From assembly GCF_032931615.1 (NCBI RefSeq), contig NZ_CP136759.1, positions 496,001-560,000 on the forward strand: DNA of 64,000 nt, in the 5' to 3' direction. The notes under the pieces are model-generated. The model ran no database searches. It was not told the origin of the DNA and was given only the letters and a program-made list of their open reading frames with translations. A program made the position numbers and the translations under genes. Of the stretch, positions 39,050-62,435 are shown in pieces; the stretch's first letter is position 1; the number at the start of each line of letters is the position of its first letter. This stretch comes from Palleronia sp. LCG004. Its GTDB lineage: Bacteria; Pseudomonadota; Alphaproteobacteria; Rhodobacterales; Rhodobacteraceae.

Positions 39050-39315
39050 GAGTTATTCCCTGTTTCAAATGCAGAACTTCAATTCTGCGAATTGTATGCG
39101 TTTATTCAAATAGGTCTGAATTTCAGTTGACCAACCGCTGAGAGCATAGACAGACCAAAGGCCCTCGAACGAACAGCGGACATCTTGCGGATTTGCGGCA
39201 TTCCACAACTCGGGCTCGGAGCGGACGTGGGATGCAGGGCAGAAACCTGTGATATAATTGCATAGTCAACGTCGGGTTGTCGTTGTGGAGGGCATGGCGG
39301 ATCGGAGGATCAGTC

Positions 39316-44551: not shown

Positions 44552-45079
44552 ACCTGAGCCGGTAGAGGCGCGCTTTCTGCGGTCACTGACCTTATCGGGC
44601 TCCTTGATCCCGAATACGGAAAATTCCGTGAGCCATTCCGCTTCTACTTGTTTGACAAACAGCGATTATTCACCACGGCCTTCTTGAGCTTTTCATCGCT
44701 CGCCCAGTGATCAAACTCAGCCGTTCGGCGTAGTAAGCTGGCCGGAAGCCATTGCGGTATTCGATTTGACGCGCCTTCGACCTTTGCGACGAGATGCACA
44801 AGCAGACGGTTAGTCGTTGGCTTAGTTTGCTACGGAGGCCAAGTTGCTACGGCATGTATCCACGGCAGCTTTGACCCGAGGCAACGCAGCATCCTAGCGC
44901 TCGGTGAGGGGCCTGGAAGGGCCTCGTAACGCCCCGCGCGCAGCTGCACCTGCAAAACTCAACTGGCGCAACTGGGTCACTCTGGGCTCGAAGCCGACTT
45001 TCGCCGCGGATTTGTGGTATGGTGATGCGTCGGCGAAGTGTCGAAGACGTGGCGGGACCGGTGGAGCGGAGGAACCACC
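44552..45079. other. 530-base region without a gene
   Basis: No credible coding frame was seen. A short palindrome (ACGGAA, AA, TTCCGT) lies at 44616-44629. The right end leads into the interrupted recombinase and carries its GGAGG site. Confidence 0.45.
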
Positions 45080-45484
45080 ATGTCTACCGCCAACCTACCA
45101 GCAATCCGCGCCTGCCGTCCCGCTTGGAACAAGGGACGCATCGTCGGCCAGAAACGTCCGCTGCAACCGAAGCAGGTCTGGGCGATCCGGGTCCGCCTCG
45201 AGATCGCGGAGCGGACTCGCGAGCTGGCGCTCTTCAACCTCGCCATCGATAGCAAGTTGCGAGGCTGCGATTTGGTGCGCCTCAAGGTCGCTGACGTCTA
45301 TGCGGCGGGTCAGGTCAAGCATCGCGCCGCGATCGTTCAGAGCAAGACAAGGCGGCCGGTCAGCTTCGAGATCACCGAAGGAACCCGGAAAGCAATCGGA
45401 GCATGGCTCGAGGCACCGCTGATGGTCGGATCGGAGCATCTCTGGCCCGGAAGGTTCCATGAGCGGCGGCACATCTCGACCCGC

Positions 45485-46847
45485 GATGGTGTCCCGTGCC
45501 GTGGTGTAGCTCACGATGGGCCTAGCGCTTCTGGGCGGGCCGAGCTGGTCAGTTGCACTGTGCTGCAGGCAGGCTGACGGTGAGATCATCGCAGAGAGGG
45601 GCGAGCGTTTCCAGCGTCATGTATCGACCACGCTGCACAGTCCATTCTTCGGTCTGTTCCATGAGGATCGCGCCGACGAGACGGCGTATCGAGGCCTCGT
45701 TGGGAAAGATTCCGACGACATCGGTGCGCCGCTTGATCTCGCCGTTCAGGCGCTCGATGGGGTTTGTCGAGTGCAGCTTGGTGCGGTGTTGCGGGGGAAA
45801 GGTCATGTAGGCCAAGACGTCCTCCTCGGCTCCATCCATGAGCGTTGCGAGCTTCGGCAGCTTGGGCCGCATCTGGTCAGCGACCAGGCGCCACTGCACT
45901 TTGGCCGCCGCGTGGTCCGGTTGAGCAAAGGCCGTGGCGATGAATGCTGAAACGACCCGTCGGCTGTTCTTGCCAGCGTGAGCCAGGGCATTGCGCTGGA
46001 AGTGAACGCGGCAGCGCTGCCAGGTCGTGGACAACACACGCGCCGTCGCGGCCTTGATGCCTTCGTGTGCGTCCGAGATGACGAGCTTCACGCCGTTCAG
46101 ACCGCGACGGACAAGGTCGCGAAGGAACTCGGTCCAGAACGGTTCGGCTTCCGAAGCGCCAATCGCCATACCCAGGACCTCTCGGCGTCCGTCGGTGTTT
46201 ACGCCCACCGCCAGGGTCACCGCGACGCTGACGATGCGACCTCCCTGACGAACCTTGAGGTAGGTGGCGTCAATCCAGAGGTAGGGCCATTCGCCATCGA
46301 TCGGCCGGGTCAAAAATGCATCGACCCGCTCGTCGATTTCTTCGCAGAGCCGACTGACCTGGCTCTTGGAAATGCCTGTGCCGCCCATGGCCTGCACCAG
46401 ATCATCCATAGACCGTGTCGAGACACCGTGGACGTAGGCTTCTTGTATCACGGCTGTCAGCGCCTTCTCTGCGGCCCGCCGCGGCTCGAGGAAGGACGGA
46501 AAGTAGGAGCCCGTGCGCAGTCGGGGGATGCGCAGCTCGACGCTGCCCGCCCGGGTCTGCCAATCCCGGTCGCGGTAACCATTACGTTGCGCCAAACGCT
46601 CAACGCTTTTCTCGCCATAGTCGGCGCCCGTCTTGGCGCCAACCTCAAGGTCCATAAGCCGTTCGGCTGCAAAGCCGATCATCTCGCGGAGTAAATCGGC
46701 ATCGGCGCTCTTTTCCACGAGTGCGCGCAGGTCCATCATCTGTTTGGTCATCGGGTTCAATCCTCGGTTCAGGTTGGTGGTCACAACCCGACCCTACCGA
46801 AAAACCCGATGGCCACCGTAAGCTACACCACCTCCGGGGACGTCACC
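45485..46847 (-). mobile_element. IS256-family insertion sequence, complete
   Basis: The element is 1363 bp. The outer 30 bases of the two ends match as inverted repeats at 22 positions by eye, with a perfect inner block GTGGTGTAGCT. The 8-base duplication CGACCCGC flanks it at 45477-45484 and 46848-46855, the size expected for IS256. One intact transposase frame fills it. Confidence 0.93.
45549..46751 (-). CDS. IS256-family (Mutator-type) transposase
   Basis: A 400-residue DDE transposase. The catalytic acids lie in [30 protein letters not shown] and [16 protein letters not shown], and the [10 protein letters not shown] motif characteristic of the family is present. The ATG at 46751 begins [15 protein letters not shown] as in relatives; a GTG at 46784 is the alternative. 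The frame is full length, so the element is potentially active. Confidence 0.95.
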
Positions 46848-47090
46848 CGACCCGCCAGTATGCTCGACTCGTCCGAGACTGGGTGACATCCATCGGCCTT
46901 GAGCCGAGCGGTTATGGCACCCATTCTATGCGGCGCACTAAAGTCGCGCAGATTTACCAAAAAACCGGCAACCTGCGGGCGGTGCAACTCCTCCTTGGAC
47001 ACACGAAGATGGACAGCACGGTGCGTTACCTGGGCGTCGAGTTGGAAGATGCGCTCGCGATTGCCGAGGCGGTAGAAATCTGAACTGAGC

Positions 47091-47113
47091 GGGCCGGCTG
47101 TCGCGGCCGGCCC
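47091..47113 (+). terminator. Hairpin after the interrupted recombinase
   Basis: GGGCCGGC and GCCGGCCC pair perfectly around a 7-base loop, eight bases after the recombinase stop, at the same relative place as the terminator after the paralogue. It lacks a T run. Confidence 0.6.
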
Positions 47114-47262
47114 TGAGCCGACCTTGAGGCAACACAAAATCTCTGCGATGCAGCTTTCCGAAAGCGGACATGGAGGATAGTGGGTTCTAACAGGCTGGTT
47201 TGGAAGCAAGGCTCTGCGTTCCTGATACTATTTCATGCTTTATGCTACCAAAAAAGGTGAGA

Positions 47263-48414
47263 ATGCTGGATTGGAATCAAATGGGATCACGGCCAACGGC
47301 CGTCGACTTGTTCGCCGGCGCGGGTGGGTTTTCTCTTGGTGCAATCAGATCAGGCTTCGAGGTTAGGTTTGCCGTCGAGAACGATAAATTCGCTGTTCAG
47401 ACTTATAAACGGAACATTTTGAATGCCTTCGGCAAGACCAATCCTGTTGTACTTGACGGTAGTATACTTGAGTACGTCCCTACAGAACTCGCGGGCGTAC
47501 ATTTCCAAGATAGGTCGTGCGATTTGGTGTTGGGCGGCCCTCCATGTCAGGGATTTTCCACACACAGAATTCTGAATGCTGGCGTCAACGACCCACGCAA
47601 TGAGCTAGTTCATGCATACTTTGATTTCGTTAAAGCACTGAAGCCCAGGGTTTTTCTTATGGAGAACGTTCCTGGCATTTTATGGAACCGTCACAAGCCT
47701 TACCTGGACAAGTTCTATGCGGAGGGCGAAAGGGCTGGCTACGATGTTCGCCAGCCAATTGTTCTTGATGCGCGTGATTTCGGTATTCCACAAAGGAGAA
47801 AGCGCGTTTTCATCTTGGGTGTTCGACGCGATGTGCATGTCCCGCCAAAATTTTCTTGGCCGCCACGGCAAACGCACTGCGATCCAGCGAAAGTGATCGG
47901 TAGTTTGGAGCCTTGGATAACTTGTAGCCGCGTCTTCGATCCGACGTCTGAAAACGATGCAAACAACATGCACATGAACCATGGCGTCGAACTCATCCAA
48001 GCTTTCAAGAACACACCAGTTAATGGCGGTAGCAGAAAAGATTCAGGAAGGCTGCTAGCATGTCACAAGGGCCACGATGGTCATAAGGACGTCTACGGTC
48101 GAATAGATCCTAGCAAACCCGCGCCCACGATGACCACCGCGTGCATCAACCCGTCGAAAGGCCGATTTGTACACCCAACTGAGCATCATGGAATTACCGT
48201 AAGGCAGGCCGCGAGAATCCAAACATTTCCTGATCACTTTGTGTTCGAAGGCGGCCTGACCGCAGCAGGGCGTCAAATTGGCAATGCTGTACCCGTCGAA
48301 CTGGGCAGAGTTCTGACCAGTGAAATCATAAAACATTTGATTGTGAGCGATTCACGCAAACTGGGTGTTGCCCGAAAATATTTCGAGCCAGCTGAAAGAA
48401 GTGAATTTCAATGA
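47263..48414 (+). CDS. DNA (cytosine-5)-methyltransferase
   Basis: A 383-residue C5 methyltransferase with every conserved block: motif I VDLFAGAGGFSLGA, motif IV GGPPCQGFST with catalytic Cys95, motif VI MENVPGIL, motif VIII QRRKRVFILG, then the target-recognition region, motif IX RQAARIQTFPDHF and motif X IGNAVPVELG. It methylates cytosine in an unknown recognition sequence. The ATG at 47263 follows AAGGTGAG; starts at 47200, 47242 and 47281 are also in frame. Its stop overlaps the next start (ATGA), tying it to a MORC-like ATPase. Its GC content is clearly lower than that of neighbouring DNA, indicating separate acquisition. Confidence 0.93.
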   Translation: MLDWNQMGSRPTAVDLFAGAGGFSLGAIRSGFEVRFAVENDKFAVQTYKRNILNAFGKTNPVVLDGSILEYVPTELAGVHFQDRSCDLVLGGPPCQGFSTHRILNAGVNDPRNELVHAYFDFVKALKPRVFLMENVPGILWNRHKPYLDKFYAEGERAGYDVRQPIVLDARDFGIPQRRKRVFILGVRRDVHVPPKFSWPPRQTHCDPAKVIGSLEPWITCSRVFDPTSENDANNMHMNHGVELIQAFKNTPVNGGSRKDSGRLLACHKGHDGHKDVYGRIDPSKPAPTMTTACINPSKGRFVHPTEHHGITVRQAARIQTFPDHFVFEGGLTAAGRQIGNAVPVELGRVLTSEIIKHLIVSDSRKLGVARKYFEPAERSEFQ

Positions 48415-51380
48415 TTGAAACACAAGCATTTCGAACCCAAGCGCGGACAGTCGACCATTTGGGTCGAGAGCAAATTGCAGATTGCCCCACCGCCGTTTCA
48501 GAGTTGTGGAAGAATGCATATGACGCATATGCCCGGAACGTAAGTCTCCACATATTTGATGACCCTGAACCTGTGGCAGCTATTTTCGATGATGGCCACG
48601 GCATGAGCTACGAAGAGTTTCTCAACCGGTGGCTAGTGATTGGTACCGACTCGAAGTTCGATAAAGATGTGTCCGACGAGAAAGACAGGGACGGCCTAAA
48701 AAAACGCTCCAAACAGGGACAAAAAGGCATCGGACGTTTGTCCTCGGCCAATCTTGGACCTTTGCTATTGGTTGTAAGCAAGCGGAAAGATAAGAGCTTT
48801 GTTGCAGCACTCCTAGATTGGAGAATATTCGAGAACCCCTATTTAGTTCTATCAGACATCCAAATTCCAGTAACAGTTTTCGAAAAAAAGAGTGAGCTTC
48901 GTCAACTGCTTCCTGCGCTTTTTGATAGCCTTACAGACAACCTATGGGGATCACCTGCTGAGCCAGATAGGGCTAAGCGCTTGAAGGTTGCTTGGGAAAC
49001 ATATGACCGGGTCATGCAGGAGGCTGATCCAAAAATCAAAGCTCCATCCAACCAGATAGCCGGTACCATCATCAACGCTGTATTCGAGGATAAGCACTTC
49101 GAACCTTGGTCGGTTTGGAAGGGCGAGAAAGAGCATGGAACTGCGCTTATCGTTTCTGAGATCAACTATGATCTTCGAGCTCAGCTACCTTCGATTGATC
49201 CAGAAGGAAATGTAAAAAAAATTAGGGAGTCATTCTTCGCAACGCTGTCGGCTTTTACCGATCCTTATGTTGATCCAGAGGCTTATGAACACAACGCTTT
49301 CGACCCTGATTTCACCTATGAGGTCAAAACTTGGGTCGGTGAAATTGGAAAGCCTGTCGTTGAAGACGAAAGAGAAGTTATAAATCGGGCCGTTACACAA
49401 GAACTAGAGCATGTCCTGTCGGGAAATGTGGATTCTCACGGGATCTTTCGTGGCCAGGTAAAAGCCTTTGGGGAATGGCGCAAACTCGGTTCTGAATATG
49501 TCATCTACCCACCGAAAGACTTCAAACTGCCCCAGGGTCCCACAACTTATGTGGGACCATTTAGTATTCACGTCGCGACATATGAACGAAGCAGAACCAA
49601 CTCGAATCTGTCTGATGCAGACTGGGCTCGGTTCGAGTCCCTTGCAGAGCAACACGGTGGCTTCCTGCTGTTTCGAAATGGCCTTAGGGTGCTACCTTAT
49701 GGACGCATCGACAATGATTTCTTTCAAATCGAAACCAATCGCAGCATTAACGCTGGCCGGGAATACTGGAATGCACGCCGGATGTTTGGTCGCGTGGCGA
49801 TTTCGAGAGAGAATAATCCAAATCTTCGAGACAAGGCGGGCCGAGAAGGGTTTATCGACAACCGCAGTGCGAAAGCTTTGCGGACTTTGGTAATGAATAT
49901 TCTGAAGCGCGCCGCCTATGAATATTTCGGGAGCAACTCGAGCCTACGCAAGGAACTACTGCCAGAAATACAAGCGAGAAACTTCGCTGAAAAAGCTGAG
50001 GCCGCACGACGGGAGCTTGCGAAGACGAACGCTCGGAAGTTTCGTGGCCGGCTAAAGAAAAACTTGCCATCTCTCATGGACTTCTATGAGAGCACAAGCC
50101 AAATTGTGATTGAAACATCGATTGCAAACCAACAAGAGCTAGAGGATGCCCAAGCAACAATAGACAGTTTGAGCGAGCGCTTAAGTGATCTTAGGTTATC
50201 GGGAGCTCCCTCTAGACTTGGTTCGGTAGAGGAGGACTACCGACGTTTCAGAACGCTGTATGCCGAAATGCAAGAACGTCTCAAATTGTTAGAGGGCAAG
50301 CGCGCGGCGGCAATTGAGACAATAAATCCTAAAAAGCCTGAGGAGCTTGCGCAAAAGCAGTTAAACAGTTATGCGAGCCGGCTTCAATCGCGACTTAGGA
50401 GTTGGCGCAAATCAATCGACCAGTTGCAAGAGTCAGAAAGAGGTCGTGTGGATGCTCTTTTTGACGAGCGCAACAAGATCTTTCATTCGCTGGCGATGCC
50501 ACTTGTTGAGCAAGTTCGATTGAAGCGCCTTGGTCTAGACGAAGCGCTCGAACAAATGAAACTATTGCAGGCGAAGCTAGACACGGAAAACGAAGACACC
50601 TTTCAATCCTATCTGGACACACTCGAGGTCATGAGTGAGAACATCAACATTGAGCTCATTGCACGACAAGGGATAGCGGACAACGCTGCGCTTCGCGACG
50701 ACCTTAATCAGCTAAATCAGGTAGCACAGTTGGGCGTAACAGTCGAAATTTTGGGGCATGAATTCAATAGTAATGAGCGCATGGTCCGGGAAGGCATTCG
50801 ACAAATAAAAGCAGCTGGAGATGTATCTGGAACTCAATTAGTTGAAGACGGCTTTGAGGCGCTCAGTCAACAACTCGACTTCCTCTCGCCGCTCAAAGTG
50901 TCGGGCTCGCGTACTAGACGAACTCTAACAGGCCAAGAAATCATAGACTATTTGAAGCGCTTCTTCGGGGTTGTTTCAGAAAGCCGAGGGATCAAAATCC
51001 ATGCGTCTGAGGGTTTTAAGTCCCTGTCTCTGGAGGAACAACCCTCTAGAATTCTGCCGGTCTTTGTCAATTTGGTGAACAACAGCGTTTATTGGTTGGT
51101 AAATTCTCTTACTGAAAATCCAGAAGTGTTTTTCTCGTCTAACGATGGAAAAGTTATTGTGTCTGACAATGGGCCGGGGATTGATCCATTGGATCAAGAG
51201 AGTCTCTTCAAGATGTTCTTCACACGCAAATCGAGCGGCGGACGTGGCATTGGCCTCTATCTATGCCGCGTAAACTTGATGGCAGGTGGCCACTCCATTC
51301 GGCACTTGAATGAGCTTGAACAAAAAGTTCTTAGTGGCGCAAATTTCTTAATCGATTTCAAAGGAGTTCGCTTTGACTGA
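48411..51380 (+). CDS. Dual GHKL protein: MORC/MutL-type ATPase plus HEF-type histidine kinase
   Basis: A 989-residue protein. Residues 20-250 form a GHKL ATPase of the bacterial MORC/MutL type: SELWKNAYDA (Glu31, Asn35), IFDDGHGMS (60-66) and KQGQKGIGRLSSANLG (101-116). The middle (about 530-760) is helical and probably coiled coil. His783 lies in EILGHEFNSNER, the His-Glu-Phe motif of an unusual histidine-kinase dimerisation domain, followed by a second ATP-binding fold with N box VNLVNNSVYWLVN (Asn890/891), G1 VSDNGPGID and G2 RGIGLYLCRVN. Bacterial MORC proteins are known from restriction-modification loci. It overlaps the methyltransferase by 4 bases and the receiver gene by 8. Joint MORC and kinase activity is inference. 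Confidence 0.85.
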   Translation: MIETQAFRTQARTVDHLGREQIADCPTAVSELWKNAYDAYARNVSLHIFDDPEPVAAIFDDGHGMSYEEFLNRWLVIGTDSKFDKDVSDEKDRDGLKKRSKQGQKGIGRLSSANLGPLLLVVSKRKDKSFVAALLDWRIFENPYLVLSDIQIPVTVFEKKSELRQLLPALFDSLTDNLWGSPAEPDRAKRLKVAWETYDRVMQEADPKIKAPSNQIAGTIINAVFEDKHFEPWSVWKGEKEHGTALIVSEINYDLRAQLPSIDPEGNVKKIRESFFATLSAFTDPYVDPEAYEHNAFDPDFTYEVKTWVGEIGKPVVEDEREVINRAVTQELEHVLSGNVDSHGIFRGQVKAFGEWRKLGSEYVIYPPKDFKLPQGPTTYVGPFSIHVATYERSRTNSNLSDADWARFESLAEQHGGFLLFRNGLRVLPYGRIDNDFFQIETNRSINAGREYWNARRMFGRVAISRENNPNLRDKAGREGFIDNRSAKALRTLVMNILKRAAYEYFGSNSSLRKELLPEIQARNFAEKAEAARRELAKTNARKFRGRLKKNLPSLMDFYESTSQIVIETSIANQQELEDAQATIDSLSERLSDLRLSGAPSRLGSVEEDYRRFRTLYAEMQERLKLLEGKRAAAIETINPKKPEELAQKQLNSYASRLQSRLRSWRKSIDQLQESERGRVDALFDERNKIFHSLAMPLVEQVRLKRLGLDEALEQMKLLQAKLDTENEDTFQSYLDTLEVMSENINIELIARQGIADNAALRDDLNQLNQVAQLGVTVEILGHEFNSNERMVREGIRQIKAAGDVSGTQLVEDGFEALSQQLDFLSPLKVSGSRTRRTLTGQEIIDYLKRFFGVVSESRGIKIHASEGFKSLSLEEQPSRILPVFVNLVNNSVYWLVNSLTENPEVFFSSNDGKVIVSDNGPGIDPLDQESLFKMFFTRKSSGGRGIGLYLCRVNLMAGGHSIRHLNELEQKVLSGANFLIDFKGVRFD

Positions 51381-53271
51381 AGCGGCCACTTTTTCAAGCT
51401 TGATCCACGAAGCATTCATTGAACCACTGCGGTCGGTCCTGATAGTGGATGATCAGTATCCGACTTGGGAAGAAATCTTGAATTCGAAGATGGAGGGCGG
51501 CGCTCAGAACAAAGCCTTAGAGGAGCGTTCAGTTGGCAAGGAATGGGTTAAGAAAAACCCGAGCGAGCCGTTGGCGATAATCAAGGAATTTAGAGACCAG
51601 AAGCCAGGGTTTGTTATTGACATACACGATGCTCTGGCCCCTACGCCTGCTGAAGTAGTGTCAGGCACAAGCCCTCAAGAAAGTGCGTCTGAATTAGCCA
51701 GTCATCTTCACCAGTCAGACTTGCTTGTCTTGGACTATAACTTGGAAGGCGATGCCGGTGGATTGGGTGGCGCGAAAGCAAGAGAAATTCTACGCATGGT
51801 GCTCGCGAACAAGCACTTTAACCTAGTTCTTCTGCATACTGGAGAAGATGATCTAGACAAAGTGATGACTGAGTGCCTTATTTCATTGATGCAGAGCTGC
51901 ACATCGCTGTTTGACGAAAAAGTTCAGCAAGGGCTAGCTGGACTGGATGAAACGCTCGATGAGCTCGAAGTTGAGGGTACTTTCGACCGTTCCAAGCTGA
52001 GGGAATTTTTTCCTGATGATTTATATTTAGCCATCAGAAACCCAAAACTGGCTTCCCGCGACGTTTTTGGTGAGTTCATGCAGGGAAAGGGTCTGCTTGC
52101 CGATCTGCACGGTTGGGGTGATGGCATTGGGTTGAAGGGCGGGCAACTGCGCTCGTTCGTAGATTGGGCAATCCGTGAAAGTGAAAGGCCGCGGCTCGAT
52201 GAGTTCAATGGTGCTACCGTTGAGGGACTAAGCTGGAACGCGAATGCAGACCAAAAGTGGCTGCGTACGTCGAAGGGTTTTGTCGCATTTGTGAAGAAAG
52301 GACCCGGTGACTTGTTGAAGGAGCTGCAGGAAGCATTGGAAGACTGGAAGCCGACACCATCGAGACTGCTTTCTGCTAAGTATCGATATGAGCTCAACAG
52401 CGTCGGTGTTGCTGCAGAAGACAAGTCACTGGCTAAGGCTAGCGTGTTTGCTCAATTTTATGACGGCATCCGGGAGCCAACGAGAGACGGAGTTCTTCCA
52501 GAACAAGCAAAACTATCCCGCGAATTTAAGCTGAAGGAGCATGTCGCTCGTCAATCCGAAGCTATTGCCTTCCTCATCGAGGATGAGATTGTGAATTTTG
52601 GTGAGAAAATCGTGCAGGCTGACGAAGCCACTGACGATACCTTTGCATCCCATTATGGAGTTGATTTGAAAGATGAAGGTATAAAACGCGATGCAGTGAA
52701 TCAATATAACAGCTACGTTTCAACACTTCCACAAAAGGCAGGCGATGCACAGTTGGACAGCGGGCATATACTAAAGCAAGCAAATGGGGATTGGTGGATT
52801 TGCGCTACCCCTGCATGTGATCTTCAGCCCGGCCAAAACACAATCGCCTTCGGCGGAGATGGCCGAAGCCTGCGCCCCTTTACTGCTATGCGCCTCGTTC
52901 CGATCAAGGCGGATGATATGGACAGCGACCACATCAACAGTGGCTCCTATTGCTTCATAGAAGATCTGGAAGCCAAAAAAGTCCTTTGTTTGGGGCTCCG
53001 GACGACCGCTGATGAGACAAAGCCAGCCACGCAGAAAGTTACTTGGCGAACTTTTGTGGCAAAGAATCAAGGCTTGATCACTGGCGGCAAATGCACGGTA
53101 ATTCTACCACGATTGGGCGACACCAAGATTGAGTTGCCGGAAGAAGATCTCACTTTAGTGGCGAAGCTCAGATATGAATATGCTCTCAACTTTATTCAAC
53201 GGGTTGGGTCTAGCGTATCACGAATAGGCCTTGGTTACGCGTCTTATCCAAACAAACCTGCCACGGAATAA
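51373..53271 (+). CDS. Atypical response-regulator-like protein, large C-terminal region unknown
   Basis: A 632-residue protein starting at a TTG with AAGGAG six bases upstream. The N-terminal 170 residues form a receiver-like domain: acidic pair in SVLIVDDQYP (Asp26/27), likely phosphoacceptor Asp121 in LLVLDYNLEGDAGG, and Thr156 in LVLLHTGEDD. A long insertion (about residues 35-110) separates the first strand from the phosphoacceptor, unlike classical receivers of 120 residues. The remaining 450 residues contain no DNA-binding motif or nuclease motif that I recognise; WWICATPACDLQPG near 470 is a notable Cys-containing loop. The gene overlaps the kinase gene by eight bases, so it is its probable phosphorylation partner. 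Confidence 0.8.
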   Translation: MTEAATFSSLIHEAFIEPLRSVLIVDDQYPTWEEILNSKMEGGAQNKALEERSVGKEWVKKNPSEPLAIIKEFRDQKPGFVIDIHDALAPTPAEVVSGTSPQESASELASHLHQSDLLVLDYNLEGDAGGLGGAKAREILRMVLANKHFNLVLLHTGEDDLDKVMTECLISLMQSCTSLFDEKVQQGLAGLDETLDELEVEGTFDRSKLREFFPDDLYLAIRNPKLASRDVFGEFMQGKGLLADLHGWGDGIGLKGGQLRSFVDWAIRESERPRLDEFNGATVEGLSWNANADQKWLRTSKGFVAFVKKGPGDLLKELQEALEDWKPTPSRLLSAKYRYELNSVGVAAEDKSLAKASVFAQFYDGIREPTRDGVLPEQAKLSREFKLKEHVARQSEAIAFLIEDEIVNFGEKIVQADEATDDTFASHYGVDLKDEGIKRDAVNQYNSYVSTLPQKAGDAQLDSGHILKQANGDWWICATPACDLQPGQNTIAFGGDGRSLRPFTAMRLVPIKADDMDSDHINSGSYCFIEDLEAKKVLCLGLRTTADETKPATQKVTWRTFVAKNQGLITGGKCTVILPRLGDTKIELPEEDLTLVAKLRYEYALNFIQRVGSSVSRIGLGYASYPNKPATE

Positions 53272-54244: not shown

Positions 54245-55006
54245 TCACGTAACAGCCTTGAAGAGCTTCGAGCGATGCCAAGCAAGATTTGTACGGTGCT
54301 TATCGGTCAACAAAATCGATTGGTCCCAGCGAAGCTCTGCACGTGCCATGTCGCTTAGGGCAGGAGAAAAAAGGGGCTGGCCACCGTCGTCGAAGCTCAC
54401 GAGCCCACGGTCGAACGCGGCGTCCCAGAGTGCCGAGAGCAGCAATCCGTTGTGGATATCCATGCGTTCGGCGTCGCTTTCGCAATCCTTCCAGGGAATA
54501 ATGTGCGACGCACGAAGAAGGGGCTCGTCTAAGATGCCCGTCAGTGGACAGCGGCCCTGCCAATACTCGAGCAGTCCCGACCGGAACACGTCCTGCCCGA
54601 TGCGCTGAACGACCAGCCGTTCGGCCTCGGTGCTCGTCGGCAGATCCTTCACCTTGGCGTGGAACTTCGCGAGCGGCGCGTCGGGAAGGCTGGCCGCAAG
54701 CTGATAGACCCGGGGCATCTGGGCGTAGAGTTCGCCGAGTGTCGCGAAGGCGTAGCGGGCCAATCCGGGCCCGCCGGCGACAACCCCGGCAAGCCCTAGT
54801 TCCTCGATCACCCCCCCGTGGTCGATGGCGAGCAGCCAGCCGTCGGCAGCGTCACGCGCCAGCCAGATCGAGCCCTGAGCCGTCGTTGAGCTGTAGTGTC
54901 GCCACCCATCGGTCTCGCCATGCGTCCGGCGGAACCCGTTCTGGAACGCGACCTTGTCGCATTCCTGGCGGGTGACGAAAGACTGGGGCGCCTCGACAAC
55001 GGCCAT
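54245..55006 (-). CDS. HNH endonuclease, last gene of the DISARM-like operon
   Basis: A 253-residue protein with a C-terminal HNH_2-type nuclease domain: CPLTGILDEPLLRASHIIPW (metal Cys, then catalytic His pair region), IHNGLLLSALWDAAFDRGLVSF with Asn and His. The N-terminal 120 residues (FRRTHGETDGWRHYSSTTAQ, IWLARDAADGWLLAIDHGG) are of unknown fold and may sense DNA. The ATG at 55006 starts two bases after the previous stop; a TTG at 55012 overlaps it. HNH nucleases are not part of canonical DISARM, so this is an accessory effector or a separate gene captured by the operon. Confidence 0.82.
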   Translation of the reverse strand: MAVVEAPQSFVTRQECDKVAFQNGFRRTHGETDGWRHYSSTTAQGSIWLARDAADGWLLAIDHGGVIEELGLAGVVAGGPGLARYAFATLGELYAQMPRVYQLAASLPDAPLAKFHAKVKDLPTSTEAERLVVQRIGQDVFRSGLLEYWQGRCPLTGILDEPLLRASHIIPWKDCESDAERMDIHNGLLLSALWDAAFDRGLVSFDDGGQPLFSPALSDMARAELRWDQSILLTDKHRTNLAWHRSKLFKAVT

Positions 55007-55008
55007 GG

Positions 55009-55797
55009 TCAACCGTCCAGCCGGTCAAGCAGCCCGGCCCGCATATCTTCAAGGGACGGCAGCACGTCCTTGTCTCGGACCAGCGCGCGCACGTCGTCTT
55101 CAAAGCGCTCGAGGAAGACCGAGAATACCTCGCCCTCGTCGTCTTCGGCCGATGCTGCCATAAAGGCCTCGACCATCTCGTCAGCCAGATTGGATAGGTC
55201 GCCCGCCGGGTCGATCAGCGCGTAGCAATGGCTGGCGATGAGGTCCACCGCTTCGCCCCTGTCCGACAGTACGGACCAGATTATCCCCGAGCCTTCAACT
55301 TCGTAGCCGATCACGTCGCCGCGGTGCGGACCGATGAGGTCGAGGGTCCGGCGTGACGCGCGGCTGTTCACCTCGTCGAGGACGAGGGACACGATCCCGT
55401 CAATCCAGATGCTGCCGAGGCTTTCCTCCTCGTCGCTGTCGTCTTCCTCCTCGAAGGCTTGCGCGCTCAGAAAGACGAGCGCGTGCCTGGGAAGCTTCTC
55501 CACCTCGGTCTGGATCGATACGCGCACAACGTCTTCGAATGCGCCCGACAGCGAGCCGAGGCGAACGTCGTCCCAGCCCATGTCGTCTTCGAACGGCCCC
55601 TCCTGCAGCGACCAGCAGTACTCGTCCCACAGGTGGCGGGCCGCGACATCGCCGAAGGTGTCGTTGGCCGATTGAGAGCGCAGATCGTTGATGACTACCC
55701 CGGCGATCCGGGCGACTTCGGTGCGGGCAAAAGCCTCCGCGGCCGACTGCAAGCGCGAGAGCCCGTCCCGGCTGACCTCAACACGATCCTCTGCCAT
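55009..55797 (-). CDS. Acidic protein of the DISARM-like operon, unknown
   Basis: I do not recognise this 262-residue protein. It is strongly acidic (FEEEDDSDEEESLGS near 115; AASAEDDEGEVFSVFLERFEDD near 215), predicted helical, with no membrane segment. Acidic proteins of this kind can mimic DNA or act as inhibitors, but that is speculation. One base separates its start from the methyltransferase stop and two bases separate its stop from the HNH gene, so it is firmly part of the operon. Confidence 0.7.
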   Translation of the reverse strand: MAEDRVEVSRDGLSRLQSAAEAFARTEVARIAGVVINDLRSQSANDTFGDVAARHLWDEYCWSLQEGPFEDDMGWDDVRLGSLSGAFEDVVRVSIQTEVEKLPRHALVFLSAQAFEEEDDSDEEESLGSIWIDGIVSLVLDEVNSRASRRTLDLIGPHRGDVIGYEVEGSGIIWSVLSDRGEAVDLIASHCYALIDPAGDLSNLADEMVEAFMAASAEDDEGEVFSVFLERFEDDVRALVRDKDVLPSLEDMRAGLLDRLDG

Positions 55798-55798
55798 T

Positions 55799-58700
55799 CT
55801 AGATCGCCATGGCGCTGGACTCGCTGTTCGCCTCCAGGCGGTCCCAGGCTTCGAGGATTAGGCGTTGAGTGCGGAATTCGTCGAACTCGCGTATCTCGCG
55901 GTTACGAAGCGCCTTGAAGGTTTCGACCCCGCAGTCCTCGCCGAGCACGTTGGCGGGGTCGAGAATGTAGGCCAGCTCGTCTTTGCTCAGTTCATATACG
56001 TCGCGCGCAACGAGGACATCGATCTCAGCCGCCACGATTGCTCGTCGCTCGGGATCATCAATCACGTCCTCAACTGTGGAAAGAATCTCTGCATCGACAG
56101 CAGTCTGACGGAAGCCGGCCATCTCAGGTCCAACTGCGCAGAGTGAACAAACTCGGCGGGCGATTTCCCTCGCTGACTCTGTCGACGCAAAATCGCGAGG
56201 AAAAGGCAGGCTGTCCATGATCGTATATGACATGGTTAATGAAACCTTCTTCCGAACGAGATAGTCCATCGTCAGAGAATTCGCGATGCCAAGCCAGAGC
56301 AGTGTGTATAAGTTATCACCATTTATGAATTCTATAGTTGGAACCTTATGCCCGCTTACACAAGCCGCTGGCAGAAGGGCCGCTATTAAACCACGTTGGT
56401 TCGTCGGGCTTGCCACGTCACCGAAACCAATCCGGCATCGATCGATGCGTCCTGCGAGCTTATCAGGGGTCTTTTCGCGCAATATGCGCCACTGGGACTG
56501 AATGCGCTTGTCCGGATTACCGAAGGAATAGTCTTCCCATACGGCAGACCGGCCGCGACCGGAGACGTAGCCCTTTGCGCGGTAGTCGTAGGCGTCGATC
56601 ATCCTGCCTTCAAAGACTGGCAGTCCCTCGTCGCCCTCTGAGAACAATCCCCGATCCGTTCCCATATCGACCTCGCGCATGTAATGCCGATAGGGCAAGC
56701 CTTCGATCTCCTCGCCGAATTTCTGATAGAGGCCATACATCCTGGAGCAGACGTCCACTTCGTACTGCGACGCGAACTCCATGACGGCCACAGCGTCCGA
56801 CGAGAACTCCGATACCAGGCTGACTGGAATCTCCAGCCCGCGCCCGGAGACCACCTTTTCCAGTTTCTCCAGCGTGTTTACGCGGAACCATGCTGGGAAC
56901 CGCTCCGTCTCGCCGTCCTTCCACGCGACGTAGAGACAGAACTTCATTCGCGTATCGATTGAGGGGAACCAGATGCCTCGCGTGTTCTCAAAGCCGGCCA
57001 GTCGGTCCAGCCGGAATGCCGAAAAGAGTTCCTGGCGGATCGCGGTGGCGTTGGCGCCGTTGTAAAGCCCTTCCGGCACGAATTGCGCCGCCACGCAGCC
57101 ATGGCGCGTTGCCGAGAGCGCGGTCTCGACAAACATGCGGTAGACGTTGAAGTCCCCTTTTCCAAGGTTGCCTTTGGCGAACAGGCGATAACGCCCGCTC
57201 GACTTCATGAAATGGACCGCGGAATAGAGATCTGCGCAGTACTTGTCCCACTTCTGCGCGATCACCGGGTCAGAAAGTAGTTCCGCATATGCGACCTTCT
57301 GTTCGTCCGGCGAGAGATGGCGCACGTTCGGATCGTACACCGAAAAGAATTCTTTGTAGTCGGGACTCATCGTGTCCCACGGCGGATTCCCGAGCACGAG
57401 ATCAAATCCGCCGTTGGCCATGATGTCAGGGAATTCCAACGGCCAGTGGAAGGCTCTCGCATCGCGGGCGGCATCAATGGCCTGCGCAAACAATGGACCG
57501 AAGGGCTGAACGCCCCGCAGCCACTCCCACAGTGTGCCGCTGGTCGGAATGGTCTCCGCACCGCGGCGCGGCAACCCATCAGGGCCGGCGTGAGGTCCGC
57601 CCTTTAGCTTCGGAAGCAGGAACGCGGACACATAGAGGTCACAGGACATCTCTAGCTGCCACGCGTCTGCCCCCTTGGCCGTGATCGCTCTGAGTCTTGC
57701 GGATTTTGCTTCGACCTCTTCGACGGTGTCCTCAGGCATCGCTCGAAGGGCCTGGAAATCGCTCAACAGGTCGCGGGCCCTGCTGAACCCAAAGCCCGCA
57801 GCTATTCTGGACTTTTCATCGCGCTCGCGCTTGTTTTTCTGCGAGTAGTATCTCGCTACGTCCTTGTCGTCGTTTCCAATGGCCTTGTAGGCGTCGTCGG
57901 GGATGCCTTCTTCCAATACATTCAGATCGAAGACGCCCAGCAGTGCGTCGCCGCACCGAATCTGCGCGTCGAAGAAGCCAAGAGGAAGGCCGGGATCCAC
58001 CGTTTCGATCCAGAGTGCGACCTTGGTCAACTCAACCGCCATCGGATTGCGGTCCACCCCAAAAAGGCAGGAACGCGCCACGTCTCGCAGCGCATGACGG
58101 AAGTCAGCCAGAGAGGGTGTCCCGTCCGCACGTATCCTCGCTAGACGGGTCGCTAATCGCCTCGCTGCGGCAAGTAGAAAATGCCCGGAGCCGCAGGCGG
58201 GATCGATGATTGATAGCCCTACAAGCGCGCTCGCCGGATCTTCTGCTGCCGCTTCGGTCTTATCCAGCAAGGGATCGAGTGCGGTTTCGAGCAGTGCTTC
58301 GACCAAGCTGTCGGACGTATAGAACGAGCTTGTTGTTTTCCGCTGATTTCCCATCTGCTCGGCCGCCTCGGAGGCGAAAACCAGCGTCTTGCCGTCATCC
58401 CCCAACTGTGGCTGGAGTTCGAGCAGAGACTCGTAGACGGAGCCCAGTTCCTCGGTCTCCATCGCGCGCCAGTTGACGGGGACCATGCCGGTTTTGTCGG
58501 CGAGCCAGGAGAGGCGGTAGAGCGCCTCCATGAAAGCGCGGTTCCGCAGGCGGGCGGTTTCGAGGTGGGGCAGCATGTCATCGGCGAAAAGGCCGCCGAG
58601 CGCCGGGAGGGCGAGCGCCTCCTGTCCGTGGGCGAGCGCGCGGAAGACGATCTTGATCCCCTCGTAGCGGTCGTGGTGCTTGTCCCAGGTGGCGGCGCGG

Positions 58701-59665
58701 TAGCACTGCTTGCGCAGCGCGGCGAGACTGTAGCCCTCGGCGTAGAGCGCCCGGGCCTCGGCCTTCGACGTCGCCGGGTGGAGCAGGTTCCGGTCCTCGG
58801 CGACCATCAGGAAGATCAGCCGGTAAACGAGGCGGAGGAGTTCGTTGAACCAGGTTGTGAGGTTCACCTCACCGGATTTCAGTTTGGCCGCGAGCTCGGG
58901 GTTGGCCTCGAGGAAGCCCGAGCCCAGCACCTTGAGCGCGATCTGGACCTGGTCAGCCAGGCGGTCACGCGCGGCCTCTCCCTCGCGCGAGCCAGCCTCG
59001 CGCCACCGCTCGAGCGGGCAGTCGGTGGCCGGGGTGTCAGCGGCGCCGAAGCGTGACCGGTGGATGATGAGCCAGAGCGCGGCAAAGGACGCAATGTCCT
59101 CGGTCGAGAAGATCTGGGCGAGGTCGGCTTCGATGTAGGCGGGGCGCGTCAGGGACGCGTTGTCCCGCATGAGGCGAAGGTGGGTGCCGTTGGTGACGAT
59201 GCCCCATAAAGCTTCCTCGGTGTCGTTGAGGTAGTCTTGAAGCGCGAAGGCGGGCGAGCGGGAGCGGTCGACGGACAGGGTCGGGCTGCGGCGGTCCAGC
59301 GTCTCGCTCGGCGGCACAACGACCAGAGGCACCCGGCCGCTAGCTATCATGGCGAGCGGCGCAGTGGCTGGCGCCATGTCGTCAAAACCGAATGTCTCCT
59401 TGAAGAAGCCGGCCACAAAGCGACGTGTTGCGTCCTGGGAGGGCGCCTCGAGCTTTTCGAAGGCATCGAAGTGGGATTGGCCGACGCGGAACGCCGTCGA
59501 GATTTCCTCGCGGATCGTGAGGCCCTTGCGGACAGCATAGTCCTCCGGCGCCTGTTCCGGTGCGTCCCGCTGGTCGATCTTGGCGATCATCGCGGGCGCG
59601 ATCAGGTTGCCCTCGAGGCTGAGCGAAGGCCAGGCGGACATGTCGGAGATCGGTTTGCGCGCCAT
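55799..59665 (-). CDS. drmMI: DrmMI-like adenine methyltransferase (Eco57I type)
   Basis: A 1288-residue protein. A long N-terminal region (GFFKETFGFDD; LVYRLIFLMVAEDRNLL near 290) precedes an N6-adenine methyltransferase core with SAM motif IIDPACGSGHFLLAAARR near 485 and catalytic DLVLGNPPWDTMS near 757, then a C-terminal recognition region. Such giant Eco57I-type enzymes occur as DrmMI in class 1 DISARM, where methylation marks self DNA; related type IIG or BREX PglX enzymes share the core, but the SNF2 and DUF1998 neighbours favour DISARM. The ATG at 59665 follows GAGG; a GTG at 59671 overlaps the drmD stop. Confidence 0.83.
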   Translation of the reverse strand: MARKPISDMSAWPSLSLEGNLIAPAMIAKIDQRDAPEQAPEDYAVRKGLTIREEISTAFRVGQSHFDAFEKLEAPSQDATRRFVAGFFKETFGFDDMAPATAPLAMIASGRVPLVVVPPSETLDRRSPTLSVDRSRSPAFALQDYLNDTEEALWGIVTNGTHLRLMRDNASLTRPAYIEADLAQIFSTEDIASFAALWLIIHRSRFGAADTPATDCPLERWREAGSREGEAARDRLADQVQIALKVLGSGFLEANPELAAKLKSGEVNLTTWFNELLRLVYRLIFLMVAEDRNLLHPATSKAEARALYAEGYSLAALRKQCYRAATWDKHHDRYEGIKIVFRALAHGQEALALPALGGLFADDMLPHLETARLRNRAFMEALYRLSWLADKTGMVPVNWRAMETEELGSVYESLLELQPQLGDDGKTLVFASEAAEQMGNQRKTTSSFYTSDSLVEALLETALDPLLDKTEAAAEDPASALVGLSIIDPACGSGHFLLAAARRLATRLARIRADGTPSLADFRHALRDVARSCLFGVDRNPMAVELTKVALWIETVDPGLPLGFFDAQIRCGDALLGVFDLNVLEEGIPDDAYKAIGNDDKDVARYYSQKNKRERDEKSRIAAGFGFSRARDLLSDFQALRAMPEDTVEEVEAKSARLRAITAKGADAWQLEMSCDLYVSAFLLPKLKGGPHAGPDGLPRRGAETIPTSGTLWEWLRGVQPFGPLFAQAIDAARDARAFHWPLEFPDIMANGGFDLVLGNPPWDTMSPDYKEFFSVYDPNVRHLSPDEQKVAYAELLSDPVIAQKWDKYCADLYSAVHFMKSSGRYRLFAKGNLGKGDFNVYRMFVETALSATRHGCVAAQFVPEGLYNGANATAIRQELFSAFRLDRLAGFENTRGIWFPSIDTRMKFCLYVAWKDGETERFPAWFRVNTLEKLEKVVSGRGLEIPVSLVSEFSSDAVAVMEFASQYEVDVCSRMYGLYQKFGEEIEGLPYRHYMREVDMGTDRGLFSEGDEGLPVFEGRMIDAYDYRAKGYVSGRGRSAVWEDYSFGNPDKRIQSQWRILREKTPDKLAGRIDRCRIGFGDVASPTNQRGLIAALLPAACVSGHKVPTIEFINGDNLYTLLWLGIANSLTMDYLVRKKVSLTMSYTIMDSLPFPRDFASTESAREIARRVCSLCAVGPEMAGFRQTAVDAEILSTVEDVIDDPERRAIVAAEIDVLVARDVYELSKDELAYILDPANVLGEDCGVETFKALRNREIREFDEFRTQRLILEAWDRLEANSESSAMAI

Positions 59666-59667
59666 GA

Positions 59668-62430
59668 TCACACCTCGCCCGGCATGAGGACGAACAAGCC
59701 GATCACGTCAGGCGGGAGAACCGCGTCGACGCTGACGCGGGAGATGGATCCGGCCGCGGCACGCAGCCGAGCGTGATCCTTGACGAGTTCCACTGCCCTC
59801 TGCTTGACAAAGTCCGCCAAAGGTCCAGCAAGCAGGACGGGCAGGTCCGCCCTAGCAGCATTGATCATCCGATCTCGTGCGATCGCCGCGAGGTCGGCAG
59901 TGGCCGGCGTACTGAGCATGTTGCGGACGTCTTCACCGGACGTCACGACGCCCTTGCCCTGAAGGGCAACCAGCGCGGCTTCTTCGGCTAGGAGTAACCG
60001 CTCCTTTCTGGCGTGGATCGTGAGCTTGTACCGGACTCGCAGGAGGGCGACGCGCGTCATCGCCGTGACCGCTGTTGTCGGCCATGCACCCACGCGGCCA
60101 ATGCCGAGGTCCGGAAGCGCCTCCTGATCCAACGACGCCTCGACAAGGCTTTCGGCGAGCGATGCCGTCAGCGGATGTGTTCTCGTTAGGAGAGACGTTC
60201 CAGAGGGAGCCGGCTCTGCGGTGGCGAGCTTGACGGATTTCTCAAGGCCGCGCTGTTCAAGCTTCTCCTTTAGGGTCTGCTGGAGCGCGTGGACATGAGC
60301 TACGTAGAGGTTCCGCTTTTTCTCTAGTGGGACACCGAACCGCGACATCGCGCGCTCAATGAAAAGCTTCGTATCCTCGGGCGAGCCGAGCAGGCTTCTG
60401 ACCTTGTCCCACTCCGGCGCTACTTCAGCAGGCTTCATCGCGTTCTGGGCGAACCTGGCGCGCGATTTCTTCTCGTTCTCGCTGGCATCGCGCCAGCGCG
60501 CTTCCATGACCTTCGTGCCCTCCTCGAGGCGAAGGTCGAGAGAGAGCTGCTTGTGCCCACCACGCCGGAGCATCATTGCGGACATCAATGCGTCTGTGAC
60601 CGGTCCACGCTCATCAGGTAGCGGAACAGTTACACCAGTGGCCTTTCTAATTTCCTCGGCCTTTCGCAGGATCACATCGAGGACCGCGCCATCGATGGCG
60701 CTGTCAGGCGAAAACATCATGATCGAGCGAACCAGCTCGGCCGGTTGGCCGAAACGGTCCACCCTTCCTTCACGCTGTTGATGTCGGGTCGGATTCCACG
60801 AGAGATCGTAATGAATGACCGTGTCGAAAAGCTGCTGCAAGTTGATGCCTTCCGAGAGGCAGTCGGTCGCCACCAGGATTCTCTGCGCACCTTCTTCCGC
60901 ATCCTCCAGCGCCATTACGGCAACACGATCGCGGCGTTCGTCCGGGGTCAGCTCTCCAGTTACCGACTCGATGATGAGCTTTGGGAAAGCTCTCCGCAGG
61001 CCTGACTTCACGTGTTCGGCGGTGGCCAAGTACCGGCAGAAGACGACCGGGTTGGCACCAGCCTTGATCAGCGGTTTGAGTGCACCCACGAGGGCATCGA
61101 GTTTCGGATCTTTCGCTTCAACCAGATCGCCAGCCTGATCGATGAGCGCACGGAGTGCGGGATCATCCGAGAATGCCGTGCTCGGTTCGATGTCCACGGC
61201 ATCTTCGTCGTCGCCGTCTTCGTCATAGATCTGAGGTTCGAGACGGTCTGCTTCGTTGGCGGCGCGATTTCTCAGCGCACTCAACGCCGCGGCGGGCGAG
61301 GAACCGACGCAGCGCATGAGAGCTAGGGTGCCCCAGAACGCCAGGCGCTGATCCCTCTTTTGCTCTCCGGCTTTCGAGACCACCTCGAGGCAATAGTCCA
61401 GAACGGCTTCCTGGAACGCCAAGTGCTCGGACGAGAGGCGGTAAGCGTGCTCCGTCGTTTCATGTTTCGGGAATGATCGTTCCTCGTGCCAATCGCCCTC
61501 TACAAGGTCCACGCGACGCCGCTGGACAAAGTGCCTCGCTAGGCGCTCTCGATATTTGGCGCTGTCGAAGTCCAGCGTGGCGAACTCCTGGTCAATCAGT
61601 GAGAGCAGTCGTGCAAATGCTTCCTCGTCGCCCGAATGCGGTGTGGCCGTGAGCATGACGAGCCGGCGCTCGGCGTCTTTCGCGAGCCCCTGTAACAACT
61701 CGAAACGCTGCTGTTTGCCTTTGTGGGTGCCTACACAAGCGTGGGCTTCATCAACGATCACGAAGTCGGGACAGGCCCGCCCGAACCCCTCCCGTCGCTT
61801 CTCGGCTTTGATGTAATCGAGGCTAACGACCGTGTGGGGGTAAGCGTCGAAAAGGGTCTGAGCGAGCGGCAGATTTCGCTCGAGGCGTGCCGCTGTGCCG
61901 GAAGTCACCGCGACTGCGTCGATTCCGAACCGATCCTTAAGCTCGATGATCCACTGATCCACGAGGTGGGGTGGGCAGAGAACCGAGAATGCATCGACTT
62001 CGCCACGGTCCATGAACTCCCGCAGGATCAACCCCGCTTCGATGGTCTTGCCGATCCCGACATCGTCAGCGATCAGCAGACGCGGCACTTGAAGCCTGAG
62101 TGCCATGAGAAGCGGCACAAGCTGATACGTCCGTGGTTCAAAGGCGAGTTGCGCGGCGGATCGGAAAGGCCCGGCGCCGCGACGAAGCGTGAGCCGGAGT
62201 GCGTCCGCTAAGAGCGCAGCCTTGGCTTGCACTGTATTGCGCGAGTCTTCTGGGAGATCGAACCGCGCTGCTTCGACCGACGCGATTTCCAGCGTGGGGT
62301 CCAGGACAATGATATCGTTCTCGTTTCCCGACAGCGGTCGAAGCGCAAGAATCCCTGCGCGTGGGGCTGGGAGCGCCACCCATTCGCGACCTCGGGCCCG
62401 AACCAAATCGCCAGGTGAGAAACTCAGCAC
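59668..62430 (-). CDS. drmD: DrmD-like SNF2-family helicase
   Basis: A 920-residue superfamily 2 ATPase of the SNF2/RapA type. Motif I LLIADDVGIGKTIEAGLIL is near residue 125, motif II VIVDEAHAC near 231, motif III MLTATPHSGDE, and the helicase C domain has ATDCLSEGINLQQLFD and QREGRVDRFGQ. In class 1 DISARM, DrmD is this kind of enzyme. It starts five bases after the DUF1998 gene stop and precedes the methyltransferase by two bases. All ATPase motifs are intact. Confidence 0.85.
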   Translation of the reverse strand: MLSFSPGDLVRARGREWVALPAPRAGILALRPLSGNENDIIVLDPTLEIASVEAARFDLPEDSRNTVQAKAALLADALRLTLRRGAGPFRSAAQLAFEPRTYQLVPLLMALRLQVPRLLIADDVGIGKTIEAGLILREFMDRGEVDAFSVLCPPHLVDQWIIELKDRFGIDAVAVTSGTAARLERNLPLAQTLFDAYPHTVVSLDYIKAEKRREGFGRACPDFVIVDEAHACVGTHKGKQQRFELLQGLAKDAERRLVMLTATPHSGDEEAFARLLSLIDQEFATLDFDSAKYRERLARHFVQRRRVDLVEGDWHEERSFPKHETTEHAYRLSSEHLAFQEAVLDYCLEVVSKAGEQKRDQRLAFWGTLALMRCVGSSPAAALSALRNRAANEADRLEPQIYDEDGDDEDAVDIEPSTAFSDDPALRALIDQAGDLVEAKDPKLDALVGALKPLIKAGANPVVFCRYLATAEHVKSGLRRAFPKLIIESVTGELTPDERRDRVAVMALEDAEEGAQRILVATDCLSEGINLQQLFDTVIHYDLSWNPTRHQQREGRVDRFGQPAELVRSIMMFSPDSAIDGAVLDVILRKAEEIRKATGVTVPLPDERGPVTDALMSAMMLRRGGHKQLSLDLRLEEGTKVMEARWRDASENEKKSRARFAQNAMKPAEVAPEWDKVRSLLGSPEDTKLFIERAMSRFGVPLEKKRNLYVAHVHALQQTLKEKLEQRGLEKSVKLATAEPAPSGTSLLTRTHPLTASLAESLVEASLDQEALPDLGIGRVGAWPTTAVTAMTRVALLRVRYKLTIHARKERLLLAEEAALVALQGKGVVTSGEDVRNMLSTPATADLAAIARDRMINAARADLPVLLAGPLADFVKQRAVELVKDHARLRAAAGSISRVSVDAVLPPDVIGLFVLMPGEV

Positions 62431-62435
62431 AAGGA

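Follow-up and report, generated by a model that had tools for sequence, protein, structure and literature searches.

Two comparative studies describe the closest known relatives of the operon analysed here. The Pfam families HEF_HK and Response_reg_2 were published in 2021 as a linked pair resembling a two-component system (Bellieny-Rabelo et al, PMC8011034); the available sections of that paper report the linkage in 91.6% of 644 regions, a soluble kinase without transmembrane segments, a "group 1" architecture of HATPase_c_3, HEF_HK, and HATPase_c, and an association with a cytosine C5 methylase that often lies upstream, often with a Vsr gene next door (the study was prompted by gene induction in Pectobacterium on potato, and these sections report no functional test). 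The paraMORCs, families 1–5, were defined by Iyer et al (2008, PMC2292703). Our subject is a three-gene operon in a 64,000-nt stretch of Palleronia sp. LCG004 (NZ_CP136759.1; hereafter the window, to which all positions refer), whose open reading frames (ORFs) follow one another on the + strand at 47263–53271 and encode a C5 DNA methyltransferase, a fusion of a paraMORC ATPase to a histidine kinase, and a receiver protein with a C-terminal output domain. A first-pass annotation had read these genes as a defence system signalling by phosphotransfer and knew of no characterised system with this exact set. The claim of novelty falls, since the domain pair, its linkage, the architecture, and the C5 association already stand in the available text of PMC8011034, and the set is thus in part an already described one; the defence reading fares better, in that the domains, their co-occurrence, the invariant residues, mobility, and a location on viral contigs all fit it. 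The cassette is real, conserved, and mobile, and travels as a unit. As judged from sequence, we consider it an even bet that it is a self-contained three-gene defence cassette resembling a restriction–modification (R-M) system, in which the "restriction" half would be a phosphorelay.

The operon is compact. The methyltransferase gene (47263–48414, 383 amino acids) overlaps the kinase gene (48411–51380, 989 amino acids) by 4 bases, and the latter overlaps the receiver gene (51373–53271, 632 amino acids, beginning with TTG) by 8 bases, confirming the overlaps from which translational coupling had been proposed. The methyltransferase frame is open across 47200–48414 from a TTG at 47200, the ATG at 47263 being residue 22; we favour the latter start because the protein of the nearest relative (L009) also has 383 amino acids. 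The lower guanine–cytosine (GC) content claimed for the operon is likewise evident, at 0.473–0.514 in the six 1-kb bins of 47001–53000 and 0.546–0.704 in the remaining bins of the window. The profile searches that the first-pass annotation had suggested recover DNA_methylase, HATPase_c_3, HEF_HK, HATPase_c, and Response_reg_2, all of these matches exceeding the Pfam cut-offs.

Two separate GHKL ATP-binding folds had been proposed for the kinase, and both are borne out. The N-terminal ATPase (HATPase_c_3, residues 27–139, E 5.3e-19; 48489–48827) retains Glu31, Asn35, Asp60, Gly62, Gly64, Lys105, Gly106, and Gly108 in all 76 aligned kinases, and the C-terminal kinase domain (HATPase_c, residues 878–964, E 5.9e-12; 51042–51302) retains Asn887, Asn890, Asn891, Asp919, Gly921, and Gly923 in the same 76 (75 of the 80 genome-collection loci described below plus the window; the broken or cut copies of L024, L036, L046, L069, and L085 and the three plasmid loci are omitted). 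The profile of the C-terminal domain matches solved histidine kinases (best 3a0r_A, 1.3e-12). Between the two folds sits the HEF_HK dimerisation/phosphoacceptor domain (PF19191, residues 773–829, E 1.4e-9, 38.7 bits against a cut-off of 24.1; 50727–50897), with its phosphoacceptor His783 (codon 50757–50759) present in 76 of 76 sequences. The "His-Glu-Phe motif" noted earlier stands as regards the histidine, the phenylalanine being a local spelling (Phe785 in 3 of 76, Leu at this position in 50 of 76). Matches of the protein to the PADLOC REase_II model and, below its cut-off, to the NCBIfam MutL model are confined to the N-terminal ATPase segment. As a paraMORC, the protein would be expected to have an S5 domain following its N-terminal GHKL fold.

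The third protein matches Response_reg_2 (PF19192) at residues 19–203 (E 6.3e-22, 79 bits against a cut-off of 27), and its putative phosphoacceptor Asp121 is invariant, which bears out its description as receiver-like. Asp26, Asp27, Asp121, and Lys309 are present in 80 of 80 aligned receivers, and Thr156 in 77 of 80 (79 of the 80 genome-collection loci plus the window; L085, whose receiver is short near a contig end, and the three plasmid loci are left out). A full-length AlphaFold2 model (80 sequences, predicted local distance difference test score (pLDDT) 90.2, predicted template-modelling score (pTM) 0.87) places strands at residues 21–25, 81–85, 117–121, 150–156, and 302–308, which are read as the five receiver strands, their order in the sheet being predicted. 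The modelled fourth and fifth strands are separated by 145 mostly helical residues (157–301), as compared to about 20–25 residues at this point in a typical receiver. Lys309 directly follows the modelled fifth strand; across residues 157–301, lysine occurs in at most 36 of 80 rows at any column, as against 80 of 80 at Lys309, and on the modelled strand order this residue would be the receiver lysine. On this reading the Pfam match would take in the first four strands but just a portion of the insertion, and the receiver probably extends well past a Pfam domain that stops too early, giving a predicted receiver domain at 51430–52305 (Asp121 codon 51733–51735, Lys309 codon 52297–52299). A Foldseek search with the full-length model returned receivers among the weak hits only (RcsB REC, probability 0.77, E 0.35).

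The three genes are tightly linked across genomes. A receiver-alignment scan of 84,980 species genomes gave 83 relatives, mostly Proteobacteria by record title, of which 80 were kept; adding the window and three loci from plasmids gives a receiver-anchored set of 84 loci. The kinase is found at 83 of these (the miss, L036, is at a contig edge, with the last 79 kinase residues present) and a C5 methyltransferase at 80, all three genes standing together at 80 of the 84, the conserved co-occurrence that the first-pass annotation had proposed seeking. The methyltransferase lies within 500 bases of the kinase or receiver gene at 79 of the 80 loci that have it (the exception, L069, has a split kinase, as do L024, L046, and L085). 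Among the 83 loci with kinase and receiver, the order is methyltransferase–kinase–receiver at 63, kinase–receiver–methyltransferase at 12, and with the methyltransferase reversed at three; four lack it (L033, L044, L066, which begins at a contig start, and L085, decayed or cut), and one was left unclassified by the script (L038, methyltransferase upstream, overlong kinase ORF). On a kinase tree of 79 rows built by a quick method, gene order has changed at least four times. The same linkage is seen in other collections, searched without the receiver as anchor. Three of 72,556 plasmid records carry the kinase, the same three carry the receiver, and two of them the methyltransferase (E ≤ 1e-60); in the third, a gene annotated as a cytosine methylase adjoins the kinase–receiver pair. 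In a class sample of 385 genomes (the present one included), PF19192 occurs in five and PF19191 in four of those five; in the fifth, kinase sequence adjoins a receiver in two pieces (L003). In an order sample of 390 genomes, four have the methyltransferase (E ≤ 1e-60), and three of these carry the cassette, among them the present genome and that of L009. Among 5,426 complete Escherichia coli genomes, one allele (at least 99% identity) gives the methyltransferase in 205 and the kinase in 207 (206 at ≥ 80%), with the whole cassette at ≥ 80% in 205 and 26 partial matches; a second allele is found in seven genomes, a loose kinase search detects similarity in 214, and the cassette is thus present in roughly 4% of these genomes (205 + 7 of 5,426).

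These copies occupy diverse and often mobile settings. The GC content of the kinase and receiver genes is lower than that of the flanks at 76 of the 81 loci with enough flanking sequence (mean 47.3% versus 55.3%), a difference that may partly be a property of the genes themselves. E. coli ST131 strain 2822 carries the cassette in a tRNA-Leu island, together with an integrase, a MobH relaxase, and ArdC; on a Pantoea plasmid it sits alone, flanked by genes for transport and metabolism. Alignment scans place the receiver on seven IMG/VR viral contigs, six of which also have the kinase and the methyltransferase, the seventh beginning inside the receiver gene. One of these contigs (L145) reads replication nickase–methyltransferase–kinase–receiver–portal, with terminase and head genes, an order that we take to be P2-like, the cassette presumably occupying the accessory-gene site of such phages; another (L141) has tail genes beside the cassette. 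No PHROG match was obtained for the proteins tested from L143 (two), L137 (one), and L146 (one). A single-sequence viral scan and the INPHARED phages gave no match, and likewise none for the methyltransferase at E ≤ 1e-40.

The methyltransferase is complete, as had been claimed: it matches Pfam DNA_methylase (E 3.5e-61) and NCBIfam TIGR00675 (dcm; 165 bits against a cut-off of 100.65), and Cys95, Glu134, and Asn135 are conserved in 32 of 32 aligned sequences (31 of 76 methyltransferases picked by hand plus the window, the plasmid loci not included). The catalytic residues singled out by the first-pass annotation—Cys95 here, Asn35 and His783 in the kinase, and Asp121 in the receiver—are thus invariant throughout their alignments. 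On a quick-method tree with long branches (omitting L048, where methyltransferase and Vsr share one ORF), 72 of 79 cassette methyltransferases form one clade (support 100), separate from 31 background C5 enzymes. The other seven form a second clade, all from loci with the methyltransferase downstream of the receiver; a replacement in the lineage bearing these enzymes, of a 350-amino-acid class, is possible, divergence being an alternative given the long branches. A Vsr gene lies within 3 kb at 35 of the 84 loci (a count made with no chance control), as expected if the enzyme really makes 5-methylcytosine. At L048 (5234–7033), a single open frame of 599 amino acids holds both methylase and Vsr similarity, an apparent Vsr–methylase fusion. 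The Vsr partners and this single frame suggest that the methyltransferase forms genuine 5-methylcytosine. We dropped the idea that its target recognition domain (TRD) is unusually conserved and hence bound to one fixed target: a gap-free measure (omitting L048) looked supportive, but with gaps counted the difference is small (core 0.60 versus TRD 0.57 in 837 matched pairs, 0.54 versus 0.47 over all pairs; 0.66/0.57 and 0.64/0.54 in two small control clades).

The most interesting piece of the system is the receiver output domain (52306–53268; model pLDDT 90.9). In the model, helices at 314–450 are followed by a beta domain at about 455–600 and a C-terminal helix. Pro329, Gly345, Gly464, Cys482, Asp483, Tyr603, Arg617, Gly619, and Leu620 are invariant and Asn446, Cys477, Arg600, and Glu602 nearly so, providing an invariant Cys-Asp…Tyr…Arg signature. 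Profile searches of the PDB gave no significant match (best E 0.51 for the full-length protein, 0.55 for the C-terminus), Foldseek returned nothing at E ≤ 0.001 (PDB with both models, BFVD with the C-terminal model), no Pfam family was found in more than 5 of 80 C-terminal domains at E ≤ 0.5, and PADLOC gave one stray match across 80 receivers (Cmr5, E 0.004). A hidden nuclease was accordingly rejected as a candidate after these PDB, Pfam, and Foldseek searches; one of an unrecognised type may nevertheless be conceived of. Kinship with PemK/MazF or SH3 folds is not claimed, the hints being weak and insignificant (SH3-like eL21, probability 0.77 over 77 columns; a PemK-like hit at rank 32). Nor was a DNA-binding output domain recognised by Pfam, by PDB profiles, or across the 80 C-terminal domains. 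It is possible, though we would not wager on it, that this domain is a phosphorylation-switched effector (a nuclease or other) with a fold not represented in the PDB, such that the cassette would perform "restriction by phosphorelay" under a DNA-scanning kinase. A different way of dispensing with a recognisable nuclease would be a block without degradation, in which the paraMORC ATPase would act on unmethylated DNA by looping or compaction, in the manner of eukaryotic MORCs or BREX, with the receiver as the switch. Looping by MORC/paraMORC proteins is proposed in the available text of PMC2292703, and neither Pfam nor Foldseek recognised a nuclease; the output domain is conserved, however, with an invariant polar signature that points to a specific function in chemistry or binding, and we regard such a block as rather unlikely.

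We also considered whether a neighbouring gene might supply the missing nuclease. The three proteins themselves have no Pfam nuclease match, in agreement with the first-pass annotation. Ten of the 84 loci (the window included, 54245–55012) have an HNH_2-type gene within 3 kb, and nine an HNHc or AspBHI-type gene; 65 loci have none of these, and 38 lack Vsr as well (at some loci the sequence runs out before 3 kb). Among the nearest neighbours, the most frequent Pfam family is HNH_2 (nine cases, ahead of seven integrases; 140 of 152 neighbours scanned, the 12 left out including eight of the largest). There is thus no constant nuclease partner within 3 kb among these loci, and the AspBHI-type and HNHc nucleases, at 9 of 84 loci between them, were rejected in that role. 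AspBHI-type genes adjoin the cassette at L044 (5537–6829), L052, L064, and L068, and these four neighbours match PADLOC methyl-directed restriction endonuclease models; the methylase is missing in L044 and present in the other three, a dangerous combination should the nuclease cut the methylase product. In both of the copies read of the common E. coli allele, an HNH_2-type gene follows immediately downstream. In strain FORC_029 an IS1 copy replaces the methyltransferase, the kinase, and most of the receiver, with the HNH gene still present; in AVS0750 the methyltransferase is absent and only the last fifth of the kinase is left, next to receiver and HNH genes. Because both strains keep the HNH gene without the methylase, the HNH protein seems not to need it, and HNH_2 as a constant fourth gene was rejected (10 of 84 loci, and an E. 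coli HNH gene beside a mere cassette remnant). An arrangement in which a separate neighbour such as the HNH_2 protein restricts and the kinase and receiver are accessory could draw on the 10 loci and the common E. coli allele; the 65 loci devoid of such neighbours, and the two strains that keep the HNH gene with no methyltransferase or intact kinase alongside, make it very improbable.

The variable R-M genes nearby (HNH_2 at 10 of 84, HNHc/AspBHI-type at nine of 84) also bear on a regulatory two-component system, in which kinase and receiver would sense a cue such as nucleoside triphosphate level and control the methylase or adjacent R-M genes. Its phosphotransfer residues (His, Asp, Lys) are intact, and the authors of PMC8011034 speculated along these lines, in the text available, after the induction on potato. 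Against this, no DNA-binding output domain is recognised by Pfam or PDB profiles, the methyltransferase is the sole constant neighbour for it to regulate, and the cassette travels as a unit; we judge it an unlikely account, if one to keep in view.

The AVS0750 remnant also indicates that cells can tolerate the receiver when the kinase is not intact, since the strain retains the one and not the other. This would be compatible with abortive infection, in which the receiver, once phosphorylated, would kill the cell, the methylase serving only to mark self; other defence systems, Detocs among them, reportedly couple histidine kinases and receivers to toxic effectors. We nonetheless hold abortive infection to be quite unlikely, no toxin fold having been found and the eL21 and PemK-like hints being insignificant.

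We return to the restriction-like phosphorelay, and to the steps that it would involve. The methyltransferase, to judge by its unbroken set of catalytic residues and the Vsr genes often found with it, would keep host DNA 5-methylated as a self mark; the N-terminal paraMORC ATPase of the kinase would load onto and inspect DNA; incoming unmethylated DNA would switch on the histidine kinase; phosphate would pass from His783 to Asp121 (both invariant); and phosphorylation would release or dimerise the output domain, to act on DNA or on the cell. We favour this scheme because of the tight linkage, the invariant His, Asp, and Lys residues, and the mobile, viral-contig, and island locations, and also because no DNA-binding output is recognised and no nuclease is constant. 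Several observations weigh against it. Neither sequence nor fold searches recognise a nuclease or toxic domain in the receiver, relay by phosphotransfer seems a slow route to restriction, and we found no functional test in the open-access PMC literature. The methyltransferase is missing with kinase and receiver intact at L033 (where a lone 133-residue ORF resembles, by eye, a remnant) and at L044, and the kinase (≥ 80%) also occurs with no methyltransferase match in at least one E. coli genome (206 versus 205); such loss is awkward because a lethal restriction arm should be intolerant of it unless the host is protected otherwise. The fourth genome of the order sample (G617) has a family methyltransferase (L128, 7636–8796) with no kinase or receiver in the 12 kb fetched and no PF19192 match genome-wide, its neighbours being, by eye, integrase-like and nucleotide-kinase-like ORFs. 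The order of gene decay was set aside as proof of restriction, being mixed: the kinase is split and the methyltransferase kept in L024, L046, and L069, L033 and L044 are contrary cases, and frameshifts may be assembly errors. If defence by phosphorelay is correct, a single mechanism would combine two-component signalling with MORC ATPases and DNA methylation, and a new effector fold would follow; the small size of the system, three genes and a few invariant residues, opens it to direct test in laboratory E. coli.

The remainder of the window contains further signs of mobility and defence. An IS256 transposase gene lies upstream of the operon and a tyrosine recombinase gene downstream. Near-duplicate fragments, recombinase-like by eye, lie at 39277–39948, 45038–45577, and 46721–47083; the IS256 transposase gene (45549–46784) apparently breaks up the second of them. 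Similarity to a genome of the same genus (G545) stops near 30157, just ahead of a tRNA-Arg gene, a pattern pointing to an island or rearrangement in this region (30157–30311 onward); by eye, the three genes at 30416–35420 on the − strand resemble a Tn7-type transposition set. A second defence-like group occupies the − strand at 54245–63950, comprising the HNH_2 protein, a 262-residue protein, a 1290-residue Eco57I/DrmMI-like methylase, a 920-residue helicase matching PADLOC DpdE (1.6e-195) and DrmD, and a 504-residue protein with a weak DruE C-terminal match.

How, then, does the operon compare with known systems? The paraMORC families resemble it in having an N-terminal GHKL ATPase whose gene shares an operon with that of a C5 methylase and often with Vsr (PMC2292703). 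Their C-termini, in the available text, are nuclease, TIR, or uncharacterised extensions with no histidine kinase named (the word "receiver" does not occur there), whereas the present kinase ends in HEF_HK and HATPase_c and has a partner receiver. VcSduA, a Shedu protein with an N-terminal GHKL ATPase thought to control a defence effector, is similar in that respect but has its own PD-(D/E)xK nuclease (PMC12137116, as available); none was found in the cassette, the DUF4263 PD-(D/E)xK domain of Shedu type I-D having no Pfam match in the three proteins. Figure 6F of PMC13092281 includes HATPase and REC among its predicted-system abbreviations, in a form from which identity with the present set could not be seen, and the available portions of PMC12839542, PMC12948488, and PMC4659465 add nothing further on the set. 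The BbrUII/HgiDII restriction endonucleases (NCBIfam NF050001) share a similar N-terminal GHKL segment with the kinase (residues 12–133, E 2.8e-17), this ATPase segment being the one matched stretch (score 62.5 bits, cut-off 550). The features of a type II R-M system are present as regards a methyltransferase with intact motifs, and no cognate nuclease domain is recognised in the three genes by Pfam, PDB profiles, or Foldseek; those of a two-component system are present in His783, Asp121, Thr156, and Lys309. In Detocs, a histidine kinase and receiver reportedly serve phage defence alongside a second receiver, the effector being a nucleoside phosphorylase, and with neither methylase nor paraMORC ATPase. 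Pfam finds no phosphorylase domain in the window receiver, and no Detocs-named PADLOC match was obtained for the kinase, the receiver, or the 80 receivers (the presence of Detocs in PADLOC 2.0.0 being unchecked). The HEF_HK/Response_reg_2 module, as far as it is described in the available sections of PMC8011034, is essentially the same system, of which the window operon is a further member. A gene set published with no functional test that we could find thus emerges as a compact, mobile, often stand-alone cassette that keeps its phosphotransfer residues in every aligned copy, and to the published description we add the receiver insertion with Lys309, the output-domain model, the stand-alone counts, the methyltransferase clade, and the distribution across viral contigs and E. 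coli.

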